DNA of 64,000 bases from Halapricum desulfuricans (GTDB lineage: Archaea > Halobacteriota > Halobacteria > Halobacteriales > Haloarculaceae). Where the stretch lies: positions 1,101,030 to 1,165,029 of the forward strand of contig NZ_CP064788.1 of assembly GCF_017094525.1 (NCBI RefSeq), given 5' to 3'. The notes under the pieces are model-generated. The model saw only the letters and a program-made list of their open reading frames with translations. It searched no databases and had not been told where the DNA came from. A program made the position numbers and the translations under genes. Shown here piece by piece: positions 43,594 to 54,184 of the stretch; position 1 is the stretch's first letter; each line of letters starts with the position of its first letter.

Positions 43594-44647
43594 GCCGGTC
43601 GGCGATCCGCTGGGCCCCGAGCGTCGCCGCGAGCGCGGGTTCGTCCGGTGCGACGGCCTCGATATCGCGGTTGAGTTCGTCGCTGGCTCGCTCGGCAAAT
43701 TCGTCGACGATGCCCGGGATACAGGCCATCCCGCCGGTGAGCACGACCGGCTTCTCGAGCGCGAGGTTGTACACCTTCATGTGTTCGTTGGCCAGTTCCG
43801 GCAGGAAGGTGTTGGCGAACTCGTCGACCACCTCGTCGACGTACTCGTCGACGGCGTCCATGACGCTTCGCTCGATCGTGAACTCGTGTGCGCCGCCGCC
43901 GGGCTGCTGGATGACGTCGGTAAAGGGCTCGTAGTCCTCGAAGTCCGCGTGTTCCTCCTTGTACTCGCGGGCGGTCTGAACGTCGATGTTGACTCGCCCC
44001 TGCGTCTCTTCTTCGACGTAATTTGCGATCACACGGTCGACCTCGTTGCCGGTGACTGCGCCCGTCGTGTACGGCGCGAGTTGCTCGCCGCGCCGATAGG
44101 CCGAGGCCTCCAGGTTCGTCGACCCCAGGTTGACCGCCAGCAGGATCTCGTTGATCGCCTCCAGATCCTCGCCGAAGGCCGGGATCGTCCCGCACAGCGA
44201 CTCGGGATAGCTCTCGACCAGTTCCGTCCCGATCGAGCTGTTCTCGATGACGGTTTCGAGGTTCTGCAGCCCCGCCTCGTTGTCGATCGTCGGGATGGCG
44301 TAGACGACGGTACTGTCCTCGGGGACGCCGTTCGCCTCGATGACCTCCTCGAAGAACGTGCTCGTCAGTTCCGCCCGGTCGTCGTCCTCCGGCAGCCCGG
44401 ACCTGAGCATGAACTCCACCCGGTCGGGGTACTCCCGAGCCGCTTCCTCGCCGTAGAGGACCTGCTCCTCGCCGGTGAGCGCATCCTCGTAGGTCGCCAT
44501 ACAGGTCAGTGTGTTCACGATCTCCAGATCGCCGTCCCCGTCGGGATAAGCGATCACGGTCCTGGTGCTACCGAGTTTCACTCCGACCGGAACGGGTCCG
44601 TCCGTCGAACTGTCGGCCGCGTCGTCAGTCTCGTCGTCCTCGCTCAT
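43583..44647 (-). CDS. Actin/Hsp70-superfamily ATPase, salactin-like
   Basis: 354 residues with the actin ATPase layout: phosphate-1 VGVKLGSTRTVIAY, phosphate-2 LLAVNLGSTNLEASAY and adenosine motif VVLTGGMACIPG. Salactin is the haloarchaeal actin homologue described in Halobacterium salinarum that forms dynamic filaments; the segments here suggest the same family, but this is from memory of the family only. Both phosphate loops lack the usual Asp (LGST in place of DxG), so nucleotide hydrolysis may differ. Acidic 20-residue leader. Confidence 0.7.
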   Translation of the reverse strand: MSEDDETDDAADSSTDGPVPVGVKLGSTRTVIAYPDGDGDLEIVNTLTCMATYEDALTGEEQVLYGEEAAREYPDRVEFMLRSGLPEDDDRAELTSTFFEEVIEANGVPEDSTVVYAIPTIDNEAGLQNLETVIENSSIGTELVESYPESLCGTIPAFGEDLEAINEILLAVNLGSTNLEASAYRRGEQLAPYTTGAVTGNEVDRVIANYVEEETQGRVNIDVQTAREYKEEHADFEDYEPFTDVIQQPGGGAHEFTIERSVMDAVDEYVDEVVDEFANTFLPELANEHMKVYNLALEKPVVLTGGMACIPGIVDEFAERASDELNRDIEAVAPDEPALAATLGAQRIADRLSD

Positions 44648-44803
44648 ACGCCTGCGTGATGGTCCCCCCGAAGTATATAACCGCCCGGAAAAGGTAGCGA
44701 ATTTTATTGTTGTACGGAGATACGATCGGGGGTTGCCCGGTCGACGCTCGTCCGCTCGGAGGCGTCGAGGCTCGCAAGACGGGAGTCGACGGCGGCGATC
44801 GCG

Positions 44804-46240
44804 CTACGGATCGGTCCGAGAGCCGCCGTCGTCGAGCGCCCGCCAAGAGAGGCGCGGCGACCGCGCGGCCGCGACCTGATCGATCCGGCTGGCGGTCGTC
44901 CGGTGCGGTGCCGACTCAAGCGCGTCCGCGTCGGCGTCGCCGGCGGCATCGAACGCGGCCACCAGCAGATCGAGCGTCTCCCTGGACTCGGCCTCGGTCG
45001 GTTCGACCATCAGTGCCTCCTCGACGAGTTCGGGCCACTTCGTCGTCGGCGGGTGCACGCCGTGATCGAGCATGTGCTTGGCCACGTCGGCTGCGTCCCG
45101 ATCGCCGGCGCTGGCGACGAACTCGTGGTGAAACGGGCCGTACGGCACCTCGAAGTCGATCCGCTCGGCCAGGTAGTTGGCGTTGAGGACGGCCTTCGCG
45201 CTCGCGTCGGCCAGCCCCTCGTCGCCGAGTCGCCGGATATACGCGTAGGCCTTCAGCAGGACGAGCCAGTTGCCCTCGAACCCGTGGACCTTCCCGATCG
45301 AGTGGGCGGGCTCGTAGCGCTCGTAGGTGCCTCCGTCAGTCTCGCGGACGTGGGGCGCGGGCAGGTACGGCGCGAGGTCCTCGCGTACGCCGACCGGCCC
45401 GGCACCCGGCCCGCCGCCGCCGTGAGGCGTCGCGAAGGTCTTGTGGACGTTGTAGTGCATCACGTCAAAGCCCATGTCGCCCGGCCGGGCCTGTCCGAGC
45501 AGGGCGTTGAGGTTCGCCCCGTCGTAGTAGACCAGCCCCCCCGCGTCGTGGACGACCTCGGTGACGGTCTCGATGTCGCGCTCGAACAGCCCCAGCGTGT
45601 TCGGGTTCGTCAGCATGAGCGCCGCGGTTTCCTCGCCGACCGCGGCCTCGAGCGCCTCGAGGTTCACCCGGCCGTCGTCGCCGCTGGGCAACTCGACGAC
45701 GTCGAACCCCGCCATCGCCGCACTGGCGAAGTTCGTCCCGTGTGCGCTGTCCGGAACCACGACCTCCGTCCGGTCCTCGCCCCGCTGTTCGTGGTATGCC
45801 CTGGTGATCAGCAACCCCGTGTACTCGCCAGCCGCGCCGGCCGGCGGCTGCAGCGTCACGGCGTCCATCCCGCCGATCCGGCCGAGCCACTCCTGTAGTG
45901 TCGCCATGACTTCGAGTGTCCCCTGGACGCTCTCGTCGGGCCGGTCCGGGTGGACGGCCGCGTTCTCGTCGCTCGCGACGCGTTCGAGCAGCGCCGGGTT
46001 GTACTTCATCGTGCAACTGCCCAGCGGAAACGGACCGCTGTCGACCCCGTAGGTCTCCTGTGAGAGGCGCGTGTAGTGGCGCGCCAGCTCCGGCTCGGCA
46101 GGGGCTGCCATCGTGAGTTCGTCACGGGTCAGCTCCTCGGGCAACGGCGCGTCGTCGATCTCGACCGTTTCGGAGCGCTTCTCGATCAACAGCGGCTCGT
46201 AGCGGTCCTCGTCGGCCCACCGCGCCTGATCGTAGCGCAT
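44804..46240 (-). CDS. gcvPB: Glycine dehydrogenase (decarboxylating) subunit 2 (P-protein beta)
   Basis: 478 residues. The PLP lysine is in VHKTFATPHGGGG; conserved SGPFPLGSCTMKYNP and PDSAHGTNFASA are present. Forms the P-protein with GcvPA, which decarboxylates glycine onto lipoyl-GcvH. Its ATG (46240) lies directly after the gcvPA stop, so the two are co-translated. The last 50 residues are an acidic extension. gcvH and gcvT are not adjacent. Confidence 0.95.
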   Translation of the reverse strand: MRYDQARWADEDRYEPLLIEKRSETVEIDDAPLPEELTRDELTMAAPAEPELARHYTRLSQETYGVDSGPFPLGSCTMKYNPALLERVASDENAAVHPDRPDESVQGTLEVMATLQEWLGRIGGMDAVTLQPPAGAAGEYTGLLITRAYHEQRGEDRTEVVVPDSAHGTNFASAAMAGFDVVELPSGDDGRVNLEALEAAVGEETAALMLTNPNTLGLFERDIETVTEVVHDAGGLVYYDGANLNALLGQARPGDMGFDVMHYNVHKTFATPHGGGGPGAGPVGVREDLAPYLPAPHVRETDGGTYERYEPAHSIGKVHGFEGNWLVLLKAYAYIRRLGDEGLADASAKAVLNANYLAERIDFEVPYGPFHHEFVASAGDRDAADVAKHMLDHGVHPPTTKWPELVEEALMVEPTEAESRETLDLLVAAFDAAGDADADALESAPHRTTASRIDQVAAARSPRLSWRALDDGGSRTDP

Positions 46241-47572
46241 TCAGGCCACCTCCGAGAGCGCGGCGACGAGGCCGTCCGTCGCGTGTTCGTTCGCGTCGGT
46301 CACGCACAGCTGGAGGCGGTGGTCGTCGACCGCGTGAACGGCGTAGCCCCGATCCAGCAACGCGTCGCGTATCTCCGGGGCGGGCCGATCCGTGGCGGCG
46401 AGAAACTCCCGGAAGTGGTGGCGGTCGTGAACCGGCGCGCGGACGCCGTCGATATCGTCGACTCGAGACGCGAGCGTCCGCGCGTCCCGGACGGCCCGCT
46501 CGGCCAGTTCGAGCAGGCCGTCCGGGCCGAGCCAGGCGAGGTGGATCGCCGTCCGCAGCGCGACCCACGCCTGATTGGTGCAGATGTTCGAGGTCGCCCG
46601 CTCGCGGCGGATGTGCTGTTCCCGGGTCTGCAGCGTCAGCGTGTAGGCCCGCCGCCCGCGCTCGTCTGTTCCAGCCCCGACCAGCCGTCCGGGGACCTGC
46701 CGGAGGAACTGCTCGCGCGTGACGAACAGGCCGTGTCCCATCCCGTGGGCGTGGCCGAGTCCGAGCGTCCCGGCATCGCCGACGACGACGTCCGCGCCGA
46801 CGCTCGCCGGCGTCTCCAGCAGCGACAGCGCGACCGGGTCGGTCCCGAGACAGAACAGCGCCTCGCTGTCCGCGGCGAGGTCGCCGACGGCCGACAGTCG
46901 CTCCTCGATCGTCCCGCGGACGGTCGGGTTCTCCGCGTAGACCATGAGCGTGTCCGAATCGACCATCGACGTCAGCGCGTCAAGATCGGCGTTGCCGTCG
47001 TCGGTCGGGTAGGACTCGACGGTGAGATCGGCCCCCTCCGCGTAGTTTTCGAGCACCGACCGTCGCCGGAGCGGGAGCAGTTCGGGAACGAGCACGCGCG
47101 AGCCGCTGGTCGATCGCACCCGGGCGGCGAGCGTCGCGGCCTCGCCGAGGGCGGTCGCGTGGTCGTACATCGAGGCGTTCGCGACCGGCAGGCCGGTCAG
47201 GTCGACGAGCATCGACTGGTACTCGAACAGCGCCTGCAGGAACCCCTGGGCGATCTCGGGCTGATACTGCGTGTAGGAGGTCAGAAACTCGGAGCGCGAG
47301 GACAGCCGATCGACCACCGCCGGGACGTGATGGACGTAATGGCCCCGGCCCAGAAACGAGGTCATGTCGTCGTTTTCCGCGAGCGTCCCCGCAATCTCCC
47401 GGGCCGTCCCCGCGTCGTCTCGCGCTTCGATCCCGAAGGCCCGATCGAACTGCACCGCCTCGGGGATGTCGAACAGTTCGTCCACGTCGTCGGCTCCGAC
47501 CGTCTCGAGCATCGCCCGCGTCTCCGCGTCCGTGTGAGGAGCGTACGGACTCCCCTCGCGCGTCCCGGTCAT
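46241..47572 (-). CDS. gcvPA: Glycine dehydrogenase (decarboxylating) subunit 1 (P-protein alpha)
   Basis: 443 residues from ATG 47572 ([20 protein letters not shown]). Shows the P-protein motifs [47 protein letters not shown] and the late [19 protein letters not shown]. First gene of the gcvPA-gcvPB pair. Divergent promoter region with the phosphatase gene. Confidence 0.95.
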
Positions 47573-47748
47573 GTAACGACCGAGCCTACCGGCCGGGCGC
47601 ATATATCGATTGCCGTCAGGCCCACGCGCTCTGTCGTCGACGGGTCGGCTCTGTGAACGGGCTCGCTGTTCGCGGCCCACAGCGAGATATATAGCAATAC
47701 GTAGCGATCATAGAAATCCTCGTATATGCCGAGAATAAAGGGGGGACG
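47573..47748. promoter_or_regulatory. Divergent promoter region gcvPA / arsC-like gene
   Basis: AT-rich segment 47680-47740 with GATATATAG at 47686-47694 and CGTATATGCC near 47721. The second lies about 25 bp before the ATG at 47749. The G-run GGGGGG just before that ATG could act as a weak ribosome-binding site. Boxes for gcvPA on the minus strand are less clear. Confidence 0.45.
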
Positions 47749-48189
47749 ATGACAGCAGATCCCGTTCGATTCGGATTCGTCTGTGTCCAGAATGCCGGCC
47801 GGAGTCAGATGGCGACGGCGTTCGCCGAGCGCGAGCGCGACCGGCGCGGGCTCGAGGACGAGGTCGAGATCCTCACTGGGGGCACCCGGCCCGCGGACCA
47901 CGTCCACGAGGAAGTCGTCGAGACCATGCGCGAGCTGGACATCGACATCTCGGATCGGACGCCGCGCGAGATCACACACGAGGAGACGGGGTCGTGTGAT
48001 TACGTCCTCACGATGGGCTGTTCGGCCGAGAACGTCTGCCCGGCAGTCTGGCACGGAGAGAGCCGCGACTGGGACCTCGAGGACCCGGACGGCAAGGACC
48101 CACAACGCGTCCGCGAGATCCGTGACGAGGTCCAGCGACGGGTCGAGTCGCTCTTTGACGACGTGTTCGAATCGGGCGAGCAGCAGTGA
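47749..48189 (+). CDS. Low-molecular-weight phosphatase / arsenate reductase family
   Basis: 146 residues. The CX5R P-loop is CVQNAGRS (residues 12-19), with TGGTRPADHV and the late DPDGKDPQRVREIRDEV, as in thioredoxin-coupled arsenate reductases (ArsC) and LMW-PTPs. The late Asp is in DPDGKDP. Downstream Cys residues (GSCDYVLTMGCSAENVCPAV) fit the ArsC redox pair. No other ars genes nearby. It converges with the vapC fragment. Confidence 0.85.
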   Translation: MTADPVRFGFVCVQNAGRSQMATAFAERERDRRGLEDEVEILTGGTRPADHVHEEVVETMRELDIDISDRTPREITHEETGSCDYVLTMGCSAENVCPAVWHGESRDWDLEDPDGKDPQRVREIRDEVQRRVESLFDDVFESGEQQ

Positions 48190-48204
48190 ACCGCCTCGGG
48201 GTCG

Positions 48205-48347
48205 TCACTCTCGCAGGTTCGTGACGGCCATGACGTCCTCGAGCGGGGCAGTCCGGAAATCGGAGTCCGCGACGACGAGTTCGTCGCCGGTCGAGCGGGC
48301 GGTCGCGGCGATGAGCATGTCCGTCGTCGAGAGATGCATTCCAGCAG
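48205..48347 (-). pseudogene. VapC-type PIN-domain toxin, C-terminal fragment
   Basis: The minus-strand frame ending at TGA 48205 reads LSTTDMLIAATARSTGDELV, then VADSDF and MAVTNL, the last third of a PIN ribonuclease with its late acidic residues. Homology begins only about 40 residues from the end, where the CRISPR-like repeat (48348-48377) starts. The N-terminal part, start codon and antitoxin are missing in the flank, so this is a relic. Confidence 0.7.
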
Positions 48348-48377
48348 GCTTCAACACTACGAGGGTCCGTCTGAAAC
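48348..48377 (-). CRISPR. Solitary CRISPR-type repeat, no array
   Basis: On the minus strand the 30 bases begin GTTTCAGACGGACCC and end GTGTTGAAGC. This is the length, start and end of haloarchaeal type I-B CRISPR repeats, which start GTTTCAGACG and end TTGAAGC. There is no second copy within 100 bp on either side and no cas gene in the window. The AGTG near the end departs from the usual GGGG, as in degenerate terminal repeats. It is probably a relic of a locus destroyed by transposition. Confidence 0.5.
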
Positions 48378-49031
48378 CCGGGAAATCCACACCACACACT
48401 GCTGAAGGCAGTGGTGCGGAACTGTTCTCATAGCGTGATGGTTGGGCTGGCAACATCGTTTCCTCTCTGGTGATTGGCAAGTGCAACGACCAATTGCGGG
48501 CAAAGGGCGATGAAGACGTGTGACTTGACGCGTGCTCGGCCTCGGACCCGCGGGGTCCCGAGGCCGAGATCCTTGCAGACGCCAATCGCTGTTTCAACCC
48601 GTGAACGTTCTGCATACGTTTCCTCAAGCTGGCGTTGCCAGAGACGAACGGTGTCGCTGTGCTCTTTGATTCGCTCTTCGACACGGTATTCTATGTCTGG
48701 AGGATCGTCCGTATTCCGTGGGTTGTACGGCGATATCGGCACGACTGACGCTCGAAGCTACACTGTCGCCAGACATTCTCGTTGTGGAGTTCCAGCGCCA
48801 TCGGACGGGGGCCATAGATGTCGCGGTAGAAGCAGTGAAGGACACCTTTCAGGAGTTCTGGAGGTTGGTGAACCCGTGTTCGCCCCCTTGGATCGGGGGC
48901 GAACACGGAATAATCAGTGAGGAACGACAAATCGAGGTGTTCGAACAGTGCCATCGTCTCTGTCTCCAATGCTTTGAAAACCTGTTCGACCGTATCGTTA
49001 CTCGGTAGGACGGACTTGCTGCTGGACACAT
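48378..49031 (-). mobile_element. Decayed IS4-type insertion sequence, internally deleted
   Basis: The element is bounded on one side by the CRISPR-type repeat. It contains both ends of a transposase gene with the middle missing, and an imperfect hairpin (CCGCACCACTGC..GCAGTG) after the transposase stop. The exact right end was not found. Terminal inverted repeats are not obvious, so the boundaries are approximate. Confidence 0.55.
48428..49029 (-). pseudogene. IS4-family transposase with internal out-of-frame deletion
   Basis: The N-terminal 95 residues (from GTG 49029; FEHLDLSFLTDYSVFAPDPR, PPELLKGVLHCFYRDIYG) end after VWRQCSFERQ. A different frame then continues as PYNPRNTDDPPDIEYRVEER to TGA 48428. 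The second part holds YAERSRVETAIGVCK, the Y-x2-R-x3-E-x6-K signature of IS4 transposases. The DDE aspartates that should lie between are gone, and the joint near 48744 shifts frame. It cannot make active transposase. Confidence 0.8.
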
Positions 49032-49286
49032 CAATTTCGTCCTACCACTCCCTTGTGAAGACTTCTGCACCAGCGCCCCCCGTTAGCGTGAATCTTGACG
49101 TACGCTCACTCAGAACGCCGGCTACCGCAGTGCTTCTGAGCCAGACGTAGTTGAACAGGAGTCCACAATGCCCTCTCCGTGCAGCGGTTTACCACTGTAT
49201 ATTACTGATAGTATTAAACTAGAACGAATGCATCGTCGGCCAGCCGTACGAAGAACTGGAGCGACATGGCCCGAGCGCCGGCACCG
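49032..49286. other. Non-coding gap between IS remnant and lipoprotein gene
   Basis: 255 bp without a supported gene. The stretch CTGTATATTACTGATAGTATTAAAC (49195-49219) is strongly AT-rich. Short frames here are broken by stops. It may contain the outer end of the IS and flanking non-coding sequence from the disrupted locus. Confidence 0.4.
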
Positions 49287-49805
49287 TCACCCGTCTTCCG
49301 GCGTGATCGTCGTCTCTTCGAGATCGGAGAACTCGTCGATGACCTCGACGAAGACACCGACGCTTCCGCTTTCGGTACCGAGTCCGACGATGACGTGCTG
49401 GTCTCCGGGTTCGGTCACGTCGACGCTTCGTTCGACAGTGACCGGAGCGTCGACGCCGGGGCCGCCGTCAATCGTCGTGGACACGGTGTACTGTCCGGCA
49501 TCCTCAAGAACGCCACCGTAGGTCGTCGCCGTGCCCTCGTCCTCGGTTTCTCCCTCCGGTGGAATATCGAACGTCGCATCAAGCGCGGTCGTCTCGTCCG
49601 GATCCGTGACGACGACCGACCCCGTGATCCGGTGTTCTGTCGTGTTGAACACGTTCACGTCCTCGAGGACGAGTCCACCGAAGAAATCGAGCATCTCCGA
49701 ACAGCCGGCCAGCACGGCCGTCGTCACGCTCGCACCGGCCGCCAGCACGCGCCGGCGGTCAAGCGCTCTGCCATCAATACCCTCAACGGCAGTCCATCGG
49801 TCCAT
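49287..49805 (-). CDS. Tat-exported lipoprotein, unknown function
   Basis: 172 residues. The signal region has DRRRVLAAGASVTTAVLAGC: twin-arginine residues, a hydrophobic core and a lipobox LAGC, as in haloarchaeal Tat lipoproteins. The mature part is a beta-sandwich-like, acidic domain (VNVFNTTEHRITGSVVVTDP, SVDVTEPGDQHVIVGLG). It is anchored on the outer face of the membrane. Family not named. Confidence 0.8.
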   Translation of the reverse strand: MDRWTAVEGIDGRALDRRRVLAAGASVTTAVLAGCSEMLDFFGGLVLEDVNVFNTTEHRITGSVVVTDPDETTALDATFDIPPEGETEDEGTATTYGGVLEDAGQYTVSTTIDGGPGVDAPVTVERSVDVTEPGDQHVIVGLGTESGSVGVFVEVIDEFSDLEETTITPEDG

Positions 49806-49947
49806 ATCGGACCCATGCAGCCCCGAGATATGAAACCGGATCGAGCGTTTCGCACCCGGAAACGTACCGCTGGCTCGCGAGCGCTCCGTACCCGGGGCTA
49901 CACCACCGGACAGCGACCGTTCCGTGACCGCCGTGCTATCGCCCGTG

Positions 49948-50115
49948 TCACTGCTCGTCGAGCGTCGTCCGCGCGACGACCCCCGACAAGTCGTCGACAG
50001 TGACGATGACGATCACTTCCCGGTCGTCCGACTCGACCATGACGTTGAGGCACCTGATCGAATCCGCCGGGCATATCGACGACTCGAAACCGGACGGACG
50101 GGCCCGGATCGTCAC
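49948..50115 (-). CDS. Possible small protein (55 aa) after dph2
   Basis: Frame ends at TGA 49948. It contains ARPSGFESSICPADSIRCLN and then VMVESDDREVIVIVTVDDLS, with protein-like composition and GC3 bias. A GTG at 50115 is the only start; the frame is open further upstream into the dph2 3' end as TISFVPERDE. It lies 52 bp after the dph2 stop on the same strand. Two Cys and alternating hydrophobics suggest a small beta domain. Not certain to be a gene. Confidence 0.4.
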   Translation of the reverse strand: MTIRARPSGFESSICPADSIRCLNVMVESDDREVIVIVTVDDLSGVVARTTLDEQ

Positions 50116-50167
50116 CTCGTCGCGCTCGGGGACGAACGATATCGTTCCGGGTGTATCGCCGGCGGTG

Positions 50168-51214
50168 TTACCAGGTGCCGTGGAACGTGTCGAACTCCAG
50201 GTCTTCGAGGGATTCCTCGCCGACTGCGATCCGGTACTCCTGGGGGGTGAGGATCGGCTGTTTGAACTGCGGGCCGTCGTCGGTCGTGATCCGCGGACAG
50301 GCCGTGTTAACGTAGGCGTCGAGCCCGAAGTTCGTCAGCCGGTCGGGCGTGACCTCGTCCATCGTGATCATGTAGGCGTCGTCGTTGTTCTCGACGATCT
50401 CCTGTGCCGTCTCCCAGCGGCCCTGCCCGATCTTCGTCGAGAAGATGACGCCCCACGTCTCGGCGTCCATCGCCTTGTGGACGGCGGCGTAACGCTGTTT
50501 CATGAACTTCTCGGAGTCGGCCAGATCGAGGACGTTGTTCACCGGGTCGGCGATGACGACCGTCTTCTCGGGGTGTTCCATCGCCAGTCCCAGCGGGTGG
50601 AACTTCCCGCCGCCGACATAGAGGATCTGGTCGGCGTCGACGTCCGCGCTAGCGTAGTTACAGCCCAGGACCTGCCCCTCGTGGGTCAGCCGCTCGTCGC
50701 CCCGGCGCGTGTGGACCGTGTACCCGCGGCCCTCGAGCCACTCGCGCATCTCGTCGAACTTGTTCATGTGCTGGGCGGTCGTCACGAGACCGACGTTCTC
50801 GTCTTCCTCGGGCGGATCGAGCTTCTCCTCGAAGGCCCGTTTCATGATGGGGAAGACGTCCACGTTCGAGAACAGCGGGACGTAGATGATCTTCTCGGAC
50901 TGTTTCATCGGGGAGTGACCGAAGTGGACGAACACGTCCGTCCGACGCATGAGGTCGGTGTCCAGATCACAGGCACCGTAGCAGTGTTCGCCCGACAGCA
51001 GCACGTTCACGTCGTCGGGCAGTTCCGACCGGAGGTCGTTGACGACGGCGGGACCGCGCCGTTTGAGCCCCTCGGGGAACTGCAACCCGACTGAGGTCGC
51101 GTCGCGCTCGTCGACTTCGGAGATAATCCGATCGAGTTCGTAGTCCCACTCGCGGTCGTGCTTGAGAGAGAGGCCGGTATTGCGGAGATCGCCCTCGGTC
51201 CGTTCTTGACTCAT
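50168..51214 (-). CDS. dph2: Diphthamide biosynthesis enzyme Dph2
   Basis: 348 residues. The three Cys that bind the radical [4Fe-4S] cluster are in GEHCYGACDL, LGCNYAS and NTACPRI. Transfers the 3-amino-3-carboxypropyl group of SAM to His of elongation factor 2. Monocistronic, read from ATG 51214; the upstream stretch to 51250 includes a TTAAGAGG box. Confidence 0.93.
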   Translation of the reverse strand: MSQERTEGDLRNTGLSLKHDREWDYELDRIISEVDERDATSVGLQFPEGLKRRGPAVVNDLRSELPDDVNVLLSGEHCYGACDLDTDLMRRTDVFVHFGHSPMKQSEKIIYVPLFSNVDVFPIMKRAFEEKLDPPEEDENVGLVTTAQHMNKFDEMREWLEGRGYTVHTRRGDERLTHEGQVLGCNYASADVDADQILYVGGGKFHPLGLAMEHPEKTVVIADPVNNVLDLADSEKFMKQRYAAVHKAMDAETWGVIFSTKIGQGRWETAQEIVENNDDAYMITMDEVTPDRLTNFGLDAYVNTACPRITTDDGPQFKQPILTPQEYRIAVGEESLEDLEFDTFHGTW

Positions 51215-51261
51215 TGAACCGTCTTAACCGTCGAGACTGTTTAAGAGGCGTGTTTCCGGAA

Positions 51262-52264
51262 GGCCAGTCGAGAGACGGAGTATCCTTTCGCGGGTCCCGA
51301 TCCGCTGGGGTTCGAGGCCGTCCCCGACGGCGCGGCCGACCCGCCCTCGTTCGATGGAGAGCAGGTCTACGAATCGGACGTCGCCCGGGGGATTATCGAC
51401 GTCCTCGACTGGCCGAGCGGGTGGACGACGCTCGTGTACGGCCGTTCGCAGGACGGCTTCGAGTCACCGAACTGAGGGAGCTCTCGCCGGACGGAGAGAT
51501 GGTCAGTTCCCGGACGCTGGACGCGGTCCCGTCGAACAGGGTCTGGCATCTGGAACAGCCCGGAGAGCGACTCGTCGTGGGCGGACAACGAGAGCAGGAC
51601 GACCGGGGAAGCGTCGTGGTTCCGTGGTGTCGACTCCGAGTTCGCGTTCGATGCCGACTGGCGGACCATCTACGCCGGTGTGACCGTCGAGGATACGGGG
51701 CCCGACACGCAATTCTGGTCGGTCACGACCACCCACGAAGGCGTGCTGGCAGGCGGATTGAACGCCGGAGACGTGTGGCTCGTCTCCTACGCCAACGGCG
51801 AGGAATCCTGGCGACGAACGATCACCCACGGCGAGGAGGCCTACATCGTCGAACACCTCGCTGCCGGGCAGACGGGAACGTACGCAGTAGCCCAGACGAA
51901 CCAGTTCGCGACGGGAAACAACCACCTGCTGTTACTCTCGCTCGGTGGAGAGGGATCCGTCGAATGGGCGCGCGTCTTCGATCCGAACTACGAGGAGTAC
52001 ACCGAGGGGCCGATGGAGCTGTACGGTCATGGGATCGTCGACGCCGGCGGACCGGTCCTCGTCGGCACCACCAGTGATCGGGTCTGGCTGGCCGCGACCG
52101 AGCCGGACGGAACGATGCGGTGGGCCGGCTATTACCCCGGTTCCCGGGAGTCTCGGACTGTCAGATCACTCGGAATCGAGGCGAGTGCAGAGCGACGCTC
52201 GCTGTACGGCAGCACCGGAACTCATCAGGAGGAGACACCCTGGCTCGCCTGGCTGGATCCGTGA
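51262..52264 (+). pseudogene. Beta-propeller-like gene, broken by frameshifts
   Basis: Three reading frames follow each other with related character: 51262-51475 (DVLDWPSGWTTLVYGRSQDG), about 51460-51615 (LSPDGEMVSSRTLDAVPSNR) and about 51610-52264 (DADWRTIYAGVTVEDTG, GDVWLVSYANGEESWRRTIT). They look like one WD/PQQ-type repeat protein of at least 330 residues. No start codon or signal peptide is clear at the 5' end. Two frameshifts (near 51460 and 51615) and a missing start make it non-functional, barring sequencing errors. Confidence 0.65.
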
Positions 52265-52297
52265 CGGCGTCGCAGCCAGCCCAAACCCACACGGCGA

Positions 52298-52447
52298 TCA
52301 GGACTCGACGTCGTCCCGAAGGTCCTCGACGTGCGTGCGGACGACTCTCAGTGTCGCGTCGGCGTCGGCGTATCCCTGGTCGTACTCCTCGAACGCGGCG
52401 TCGATGGCGTCCAGAAACTCCTCGACAGAGGTGTCTGTGTCGGTCAT
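52298..52447 (-). CDS. Small acidic protein (49 aa)
   Basis: From ATG 52447 (MTDTDTSVEEFLDAIDAAFE) to the stop at 52298: 49 residues, mostly helix and very acidic (EEYDQGYADADATLRVVRTH). Codon use matches neighbours. A longer frame from 52480 is not needed. The family is not recognised; similar short acidic proteins are common in haloarchaea. Confidence 0.55.
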   Translation of the reverse strand: MTDTDTSVEEFLDAIDAAFEEYDQGYADADATLRVVRTHVEDLRDDVES

Positions 52448-52577
52448 ACGCGGCTGTTCGGTCCGGTCGCTGTAAGTCAATTCCGGATTAACACCATTCG
52501 CAGACCGGATTCGGCCGGTTGCCGTCTCGATTCAGTCGATGACATCACGTCCTGTCGTCTCGAGCTAGCCGGCATCA

Positions 52578-52721
52578 TCACGGCATCGCCGTCTCGAACG
52601 CGTCGAGCGCGTCGTCACTGCCGGCGACCAGCAGTCTGTCGTCGGGGCCGACCTCGAAGTCGGGATCGAAGTCGTCAGGAGCCGCTCGCCCCACCTGACG
52701 CACGCGTACGGGACGCCCCTG
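52578..52721 (-). pseudogene. RCK_C (TrkA-C) domain fragment
   Basis: The last 45 residues of the frame, PDDFDPDFEVGPDDRLLVAG then SDDALDAF, match the end of an RCK_C ligand-binding domain of potassium transport regulators. The frame upstream is made of a palindromic repeat (52722-52784) and then non-homologous sequence, so the rest of the gene is missing. A relic. Confidence 0.55.
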
Positions 52722-52784
52722 ATAGTGGTTGCTGGACGTCTGTTCCGTGCGGTCACATCGGTAAATCGGTATAGCAACCACTAT
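52722..52784 (-). repeat. Palindromic element, family A, short form with compensated arms
   Basis: The outer arms ATAGTGGTTGCT and AGCAACCACTAT (52722-52733 and 52773-52784) are perfectly complementary over 12 bases. On the minus strand the interior reads ACCGATTTACCGATGTGACC, CGCAC and GGAACAGACGT, matching other copies but without their central hairpin. Compared with the 28049 copy the arms differ at the same positions on both sides, which keeps the pairing. It sits exactly where the RCK_C homology begins. Confidence 0.7.
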
Positions 52785-52855
52785 GGCCCGCCACACTCCG
52801 AGCGGTCGGTCAGTTTCATCCCGAAAGGGGATACCAGTGATGCCACGGAACAATA

Positions 52856-54184
52856 TCACTCCGGCTGACCGTCCGTTTCGAACCACGCCACGACCTGGTC
52901 CGCGATCGACTCCGAAAGGTCGGTCAGATAGACCGTCCCCCAGACCGTGACGACGAGCGCGCCGAGTGCGTTGAACAGCAGATCGCCCATCGTGTCGTCG
53001 ATCCCGTACTGGATGAGCACGGCCTGAACCCCCAGCGCGGCGGCGCTCTGATCGAGTGCGAACTCGAGAATCTCCCAGACGACGCCGGCGGCGAACACGA
53101 ACAACAGGATGAACGCGCCCATCAGCTTCGGGGGGACATAGACGCGCTCGACGTGGACGTGGATCGCCCGGAAGACGGCGTAGCCGCCGGCGGCGACGAC
53201 CGTCGCCGACAGCGCGTGTGTGAAACGGTCGAACAGCGGGATCTGAGAGTAGAGTCCGGTCGAGCCCAGCGCGTGCAGGGACACCGCGGCGGTGATCCAG
53301 AGGACCAGTCCGACGTCCATCGCGAGGTCGTATTCGCGGCGCAAAATTGCCGGGACAAACGTGATCGCGAGCATGACTGCCGCGTTGACGATCACTGCCA
53401 AATCGCGCGCGTACAGCCCTCCAAGCAGGATCACGACGAGCAGCACCTGCATCGCGCGGCTGGCCTGGCGCTGTCGACGCGGGCTGATCGAGAGCCGATC
53501 GCGCAACCGCCGCGACTCAGACGCGTTACGTGTGCCGGACGTGAGATCGTCTCCAGCCCTCGGATCACCTTCCGGTTCCGGCGGGACGTACGTTCGGTCG
53601 GACTGGTCGTCGTCCCGCGAGCGAACGAACAGGTCGAAGAGTACGCCAGCGCCGATCCCGGCACAGCCGGCGGCGACGAACTCCACCATTATGTCGGCGT
53701 TGATCGCGTCCTGGCTGCGCCCGTCGAGTACGAACGCCGTCTCGAAGAGCACGTCCGAGGTCCACTGGAGGACGTTCCAGACGCCGGCGACCGCGAGCGT
53801 CGTCAACACGACCAGCACGATCGCGAACGAGCGGTTCATCCGGACCGACGTGAACTGGTGCAGTTCGGTGATGACGAGCAGCGCGAGCGCAGCCACGGCC
53901 AGGTACGCCGGGATGTCCGTTCGGAAAGAGTGGCCCAGCAACGCCTGCCAGAGGATCGGCGCGAGCACGAGCGCGATCAGTTCCCAAGGCGGCATTGCCC
54001 GTCGCTCGCGGAAGACAATGGCTGGAATCAAAACTATCACCGCGACGACGAGCGCGATGAACGTCCAGTTGAACGCCCCGTCGAAAAGTGTCTCGACGAT
54101 CGTCAGCGCGAGCACGGCGACGGCGACCCAGCCGACGATCACGTCGCGTTCCCGGCTCGCGAGCAACGCGCTCAGCTGGTTCAT
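52856..54184 (-). CDS. Tandem DUF2238/YjdF-like membrane protein
   Basis: 442 residues from ATG 54184, with about ten hydrophobic segments. The C-terminal half has the YjdF pattern: FDRFTHALSATVVAAGGYAV, then VVWEILEFALDQSAAAL and DTMGDLLFNALGALV. The N-terminal half has a diverged copy (VWNVLQWTSDVLFETAFVLD, VEFVAAGCAGIGAGVLFDL). The halves are joined by a charged loop (about 210-265). Probably a tandem duplication. Function unknown. Confidence 0.72.
   Translation of the reverse strand: MNQLSALLASRERDVIVGWVAVAVLALTIVETLFDGAFNWTFIALVVAVIVLIPAIVFRERRAMPPWELIALVLAPILWQALLGHSFRTDIPAYLAVAALALLVITELHQFTSVRMNRSFAIVLVVLTTLAVAGVWNVLQWTSDVLFETAFVLDGRSQDAINADIMVEFVAAGCAGIGAGVLFDLFVRSRDDDQSDRTYVPPEPEGDPRAGDDLTSGTRNASESRRLRDRLSISPRRQRQASRAMQVLLVVILLGGLYARDLAVIVNAAVMLAITFVPAILRREYDLAMDVGLVLWITAAVSLHALGSTGLYSQIPLFDRFTHALSATVVAAGGYAVFRAIHVHVERVYVPPKLMGAFILLFVFAAGVVWEILEFALDQSAAALGVQAVLIQYGIDDTMGDLLFNALGALVVTVWGTVYLTDLSESIADQVVAWFETDGQPE

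Follow-up and report, generated by a model that had tools for sequence, protein, structure and literature searches.

A lone type I-B CRISPR repeat in Halapricum desulfuricans, very probably the remnant of a locus kept by a sister species

The genome of Halapricum desulfuricans carries a single type I-B CRISPR repeat of 30 nt, situated between a toxin gene fragment and a decayed insertion sequence (IS) in a 64,000-nucleotide stretch of its DNA (the window). This repeat is very probably a dead relic, namely one trailer-side repeat of an ancestral I-B locus that was lost by deletion at a chromosomal rearrangement. In a sister species of the same genus (G005), the same site is occupied by an array with I-B cas genes. 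These cas genes are absent from the H. desulfuricans genome, and the two flanks of the locus are now found far apart. Here, we describe the repeat and its surroundings, compare them with the locus of the sister species, and weigh other explanations for a repeat in this position.

The repeat and its immediate neighbours

The 30-mer (GTTTCAGACGGACCCTCGTAGTGTTGAAGC; Table 1) is a genuine CRISPR-class repeat and is truly alone. The Rfam family CRISPR-DR24 (RF01337) covers it over its full length (1–30 of 30) at 37.7 bits (gathering score, 35), with E = 6e-5 for the stretch searched, and none of 100 dinucleotide shuffles of the window gave a repeat match. Arrays of relatives in both the genus and the family contain repeats that are identical to it at 28 of 30 positions. 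The G005 array is one of these, differing by two substitutions (GTAGTG in the window for GTGGGG in G005); under a uniform-base model, a match with at most two mismatches to the G005 repeat would be expected by chance about 2e-8 times per genome. An identical 30-mer was not found in the genomes of other species. Across the 2.89-Mb single-contig genome, it is the single I-B-type repeat at up to three mismatches to the haloarchaeal pattern. There is no second repeat or mini-array near it, the next best 30-mer in the surrounding 1.3 kb having 14–15 mismatches.

On one side, the repeat follows the 3′ fragment of a vapC toxin gene within 15 bp. This fragment has 97% DNA identity to G005:C1:1595548-1595665 and is 5′-truncated in G005 too; at the 14-bp joint that separates it from the repeat, G005 carries approximately 370 bp. 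On the other side, 29 bp lead to an IS with an internal deletion of approximately 397 bp (junction near 48749/48750) and terminal inverted repeats GGC..TGGTGC. Copies of 1060–1068 bp in related genera define the ends of this element (GGCGGTGGTGCAGAAG...CTGCACCACCGCC), which rules out that the repeat is part of an IS end. One of these copies is flanked by a 9-bp duplication (TTAACAGCG); at the window IS, no target-site duplication is present. The 29-bp stretch may be the 3′ end of a spacer, the last one to survive. An exact scan of viral contigs for its source came back empty, and comparison with phages and plasmids gave chance-level matches only. Neither the 29-bp nor the 14-bp stretch matched a known spacer or trailer, and the exact joint could therefore not be reconstructed. 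No tRNA integration site was found in positions 44000–54000 of the window.

Table 1. Features at and around the solitary repeat (positions in the window)
Feature	Position	Strand	Basis
Low-molecular-weight phosphatase/ArsC-like gene	47749..48189	+	LMWPc E = 1e-29; colinear with G005 at 95.5%
3′ fragment of vapC/PIN toxin gene	48205..48333	-	Pfam PIN E = 4e-4; common to G005
Deletion joint following the repeat, 14 bp (CTGCTGGAATGCAT)	48334..48347	-	blastn and sequence comparison with G005
Solitary type I-B CRISPR direct repeat (very probably a relic)	48348..48377	-	CRISPR-DR24 match, single copy, 28/30 to G005 array
29 bp between IS end and repeat	48378..48406	-	IS end known from copies in relatives
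Decayed DDE (IS4-type) insertion sequence	48407..49077	-	DDE_Tnp_1 match; alignment with copies in relatives
898-bp duplicate of G000:C1:938639-939536 (98%), lipoprotein-like ORF; part of the breakpoint scar	49225..50122	-	

The orthologous site in a sister species and the split flanks

The left flank of the window repeat, including the low-molecular-weight phosphatase/ArsC-like gene and the gcv genes, is colinear with G005 over 5.7 kb (L034 3690-9363) at 95.5% identity, up to the vapC fragment. Past this fragment, on the same strand, G005 has approximately 370 bp with one degenerate terminal repeat, followed by an I-B array in which 18 repeats (GTTTCAGACGGACCCTCGTGGGGTTGAAGC; one copy carries one change) are separated by spacers of 33–37 nt. 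Beyond the array lie a leader ending in GGCCATG and then cas1b, cas3, cas5b, cas7/csh2, cas8b and cas6, so that, read towards the array, cas6, cas8b, cas7, cas5, cas3 and cas1b are upstream of it. Relative to this array, the window repeat stands at the trailer side. Because the repeats of the G005 array are 28/30 identical to it and the array sits beside this vapC fragment, where the 5.7 kb of colinear DNA ends, we interpret the window repeat as its trailer-side remnant. The two loci are alike in site, strand, repeat class (CRISPR-DR24) and the vapC fragment at the trailer side; however, where G005 has 18 repeats, a leader and I-B cas genes, the window is left with a single repeat and lacks I-B cas genes. 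The arsC–vapC–CRISPR block occurs only in these two genomes; the colinearity of the other four species ends near the gcv gene end. G005 also encodes a second I-B-type system (cas1 and csh2; G005:C1:930000-947000, L136), whose array has more than 100 copies of another repeat (GTTCCAGACGAACCCTTGAGGGATTGAAGC).

When the G005 I-B locus is compared with the H. desulfuricans genome, the matches listed consist of the 30-mer, the far flank, and short matches of one spacer to type I-D repeats; among them is no nucleotide trace of the I-B cas genes. The far flank, an alpha-amylase region (G005 1606.7 kb onward), is now at 1913863, which is 764 kb from the repeat and 1.4 kb past the end of the type I-D locus. 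The DNA past the window IS derives from two other places: it consists of the 898-bp duplicate and a DPH2-like block, whose counterpart in G005 is inverted and located at 2268 kb. The window joint is a scar of rearrangement and deletion. There, the duplicate separates the decayed IS from the DPH2-like gene, and at its source locus one of its ends falls on an indel with respect to G005.

The common ancestor of this genome and G005 would thus have had a type I-B CRISPR–Cas locus at the vapC site, which the window lineage would have lost by deletion at a chromosomal rearrangement. An IS would then have landed beside the remnant of the locus, probably within a spacer, and decayed, with the 898-bp duplicate being added at the scar. 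One end of the old locus would have stayed beside vapC, and the other flank (alpha-amylase) would have come to border the type I-D locus. The order of deletion, IS insertion and duplication is the one we infer. Two points count against this reading: the stretches on either side of the repeat match no known spacer or trailer, and, though relics should drift, 28 of the 30 bases are retained, among them the last eight (GTTGAAGC). In I-B systems, these eight bases form the crRNA handle.

An earlier note on this DNA, made from its letters, had described a solitary repeat of haloarchaeal I-B type, and the full-length CRISPR-DR24 match and single genome copy bear this out. The two objections it had foreseen both fall away: both the genus and the family have arrays whose repeats agree with the 30-mer at 28 of 30 positions, and the repeat lies outside the IS ends as defined by other copies. 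It had also identified the neighbours correctly as the 3′ part of vapC (PIN match) and an internally deleted IS4-type element (DDE_Tnp_1 match, approximately 397 bp deleted), but the repeat does not lie precisely between them, as it is flush with neither (29 bp to the IS, about 14 bp to the vapC homology). It had proposed to look for the same vapC–repeat joint in other strains; in G005, this vapC fragment is accompanied by an identically oriented array. Its proposed history of an array or array end, broken by transposition and deletion, agrees with the 18-repeat array and I-B cas genes at that site.

The resident type I-D system, residual function and other explanations

The only CRISPR found in the genome besides the lone repeat is a type I-D system with a 37-nt repeat unrelated to the 30-mer. 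Its locus (G000:C1:1896588-1912418) contains a cas6-like gene, csc3, csc2, csc1, cas3′, cas4 and cas1d, and is apparently complete. The repeat, GTTTCAATCCCG(GTC/TCG)TGGGTTTTCTCCCTGCTGCGAC, occurs in 84 copies by pattern, distributed over two arrays that flank the cas genes and point towards each other. Two variants of the repeat (GGTC/GTCG core) occur, in blocks, within each array, and one spacer is common to both arrays (aaccgggcggccttcaatagcg...). The comparison with arrays of the same genome, recommended by the earlier note, thus leads to type I-D and a different repeat only.

Neither an I-B Cas7 (Csh2/Cas7b) nor a second cas1 was found in the genome, the single cas1 being that of type I-D. 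The hairpin of the 30-mer is disrupted, with the CRISPR-DR24 alignment flagging a broken pair, and its predicted fold is no better than that of shuffles (z = -0.42), a weak measure given that the G005 repeat itself reaches only -0.72. In local DNA, there is no TTC-flanked seed match for the sequence after the repeat. A functional I-B array would need two or more repeats enclosing a spacer, together with a leader and cas genes, and this set is not present; the locus instead combines an I-B-class repeat and an array at the orthologous site of a relative with the absence of cognate cas genes and of spacer–repeat units, as a relic would. The 30-mer is almost certainly non-working. A present-day role is unlikely because of the missing I-B Cas1 and Cas7, the broken hairpin, the absence of a near second repeat, and the unrelated 37-nt repeat of the resident system. 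The suggestion that it could still act as a Cas6 substrate or as a site of off-array acquisition is not supported: the hairpin is disrupted, and the genome has no I-B Cas7, no second cas1 and, as the only CRISPR system found, type I-D.

The trailer-most (oldest) spacer of the G005 I-B array touches on the resident system as well. This 37-mer (AATCCCGATTTGGGTTTGCTCCCTGCTGCGACACGCA; G005:C1:1595999-1596035, L036 6000-6036, minus strand) matches the I-D repeat of the H. desulfuricans genome over its first 32 nt with three differences, the remaining 5 nt being extra. In the I-D repeat, the matched 32 nt are preceded by TTC, an I-B PAM used in haloarchaea (PMC8501985). The I-D repeat pattern is matched nowhere else in G005, and no exact copy of the spacer occurs in viral contigs. 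The spacer looks like an I-B spacer that was once taken from, or aimed at, a type I-D array. Conflict between CRISPR systems could then have driven the loss of I-B: I-D arrays would come under attack in a lineage that had both systems, and this genome would accordingly have kept I-D and lost I-B. We regard this as improbable. Two of the three differences lie in the seed, and the G005 spacer may therefore not act on the I-D arrays of this genome.

Alternatively, the 30-mer might serve regulation as an ectopic repeat of the CreA/CreR type, where a crRNA-like RNA guides Cascade to a promoter, here perhaps that of the neighbouring toxin gene. Degenerate ectopic repeats, one or two beside toxins, are known in haloarchaea (PMC9458426, PMC8501985), and the window repeat resembles them as a degenerate I-B-type repeat outside an array, with hairpin-breaking substitutions and an adjoining toxin gene fragment. 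Unlike CreTA elements, however, it has no link to a cas operon, no I-B Cascade (as the genome lacks I-B Cas7), and no second repeat nearby, the next best same-strand 30-mer having 15 mismatches. Nor does a TTC-flanked seed match in local DNA point to a pseudo-spacer or toxin promoter target; moreover, the toxin gene is a 5′-truncated fragment and an ordinary array occupies this spot in the sister species. On the features tested, we reject this explanation, which is largely refuted by the missing I-B effector and to which we give very little credence.

It is similarly hard to believe that the repeat was brought in with the IS or made by off-target spacer integration, instead of stemming from an array at this site. 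An IS is indeed close by and lacks a target-site duplication, but the vapC fragment of G005 adjoins an array of identical orientation, none of the IS copies examined in relatives has a repeat at its end, and a spacer integrated off target would be bordered by two repeats, where the window has one. Least probable is an RNA anti-CRISPR (Racr), in which a mobile element carries a lone repeat unit that imitates the repeat of its host and thereby inhibits CRISPR: such units do occur in prophages and viruses as single repeats without cas genes (PMC10651486), and a decayed mobile element lies 29 bp from the repeat, but the inspected surroundings contain no viral gene, the repeat is outside the IS ends, its subtype (I-B) differs from that of the resident system (I-D), neither the 30-mer nor the G005-type variant has an exact match in viral contigs, and an array occupies the site in the sister species. 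The flanks of the repeat are chromosomal genes common to sister genomes.

Lone repeats in the genus and CRISPR turnover

Solitary relics after the loss of cas genes are already known in haloarchaea. In Haloquadratum walsbyi HBSQ001, the cas genes were lost and a residual CRISPR with a MITE in a spacer remained, and strain C23 keeps full systems (PMC3119063). There, a locus that one strain retains has been reduced by deletion to a remnant in the other, and a mobile element sits in one of the remnant's spacers, a pattern that the window probably shares. HBSQ001 differs in keeping the leader and five complete spacers and in having no cas genes at all, whereas H. desulfuricans keeps one trailer-side repeat at this site and has a type I-D system. 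By analogy, the event in the window would be of the same kind as the H. walsbyi loss, carried further.

Within the genus, two further genomes (G002 and G004) carry, at a position common to both, a lone I-B repeat followed by a 34-nt spacer and then by a second repeat that is truncated (L035 7812-8969; L132 6964-8046), and neither has a match to cas1 or I-B Cas7. The lone repeat is located just upstream of, and divergent from, a two-gene toxin–antitoxin-like operon encoding a 119-aa VapB/RHH-like protein (weak Pfam matches, in G004 only) and a 181-aa PIN-like protein (no Pfam match). The spacers of these elements have no TTC seed match to local DNA, and the element could be either a relic or a former CreA-like element. 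In this genus, single repeats seem to be what the loss of cas genes usually leaves behind.

For H. desulfuricans, the very probable relic allows the loss of a CRISPR–Cas locus to be placed on the chromosome. The repeat would mark the former end of an I-B locus that is still present in the sister species, and the other flank of the breakpoint now borders the type I-D locus. It represents no new system, but a clean, small example of CRISPR turnover.
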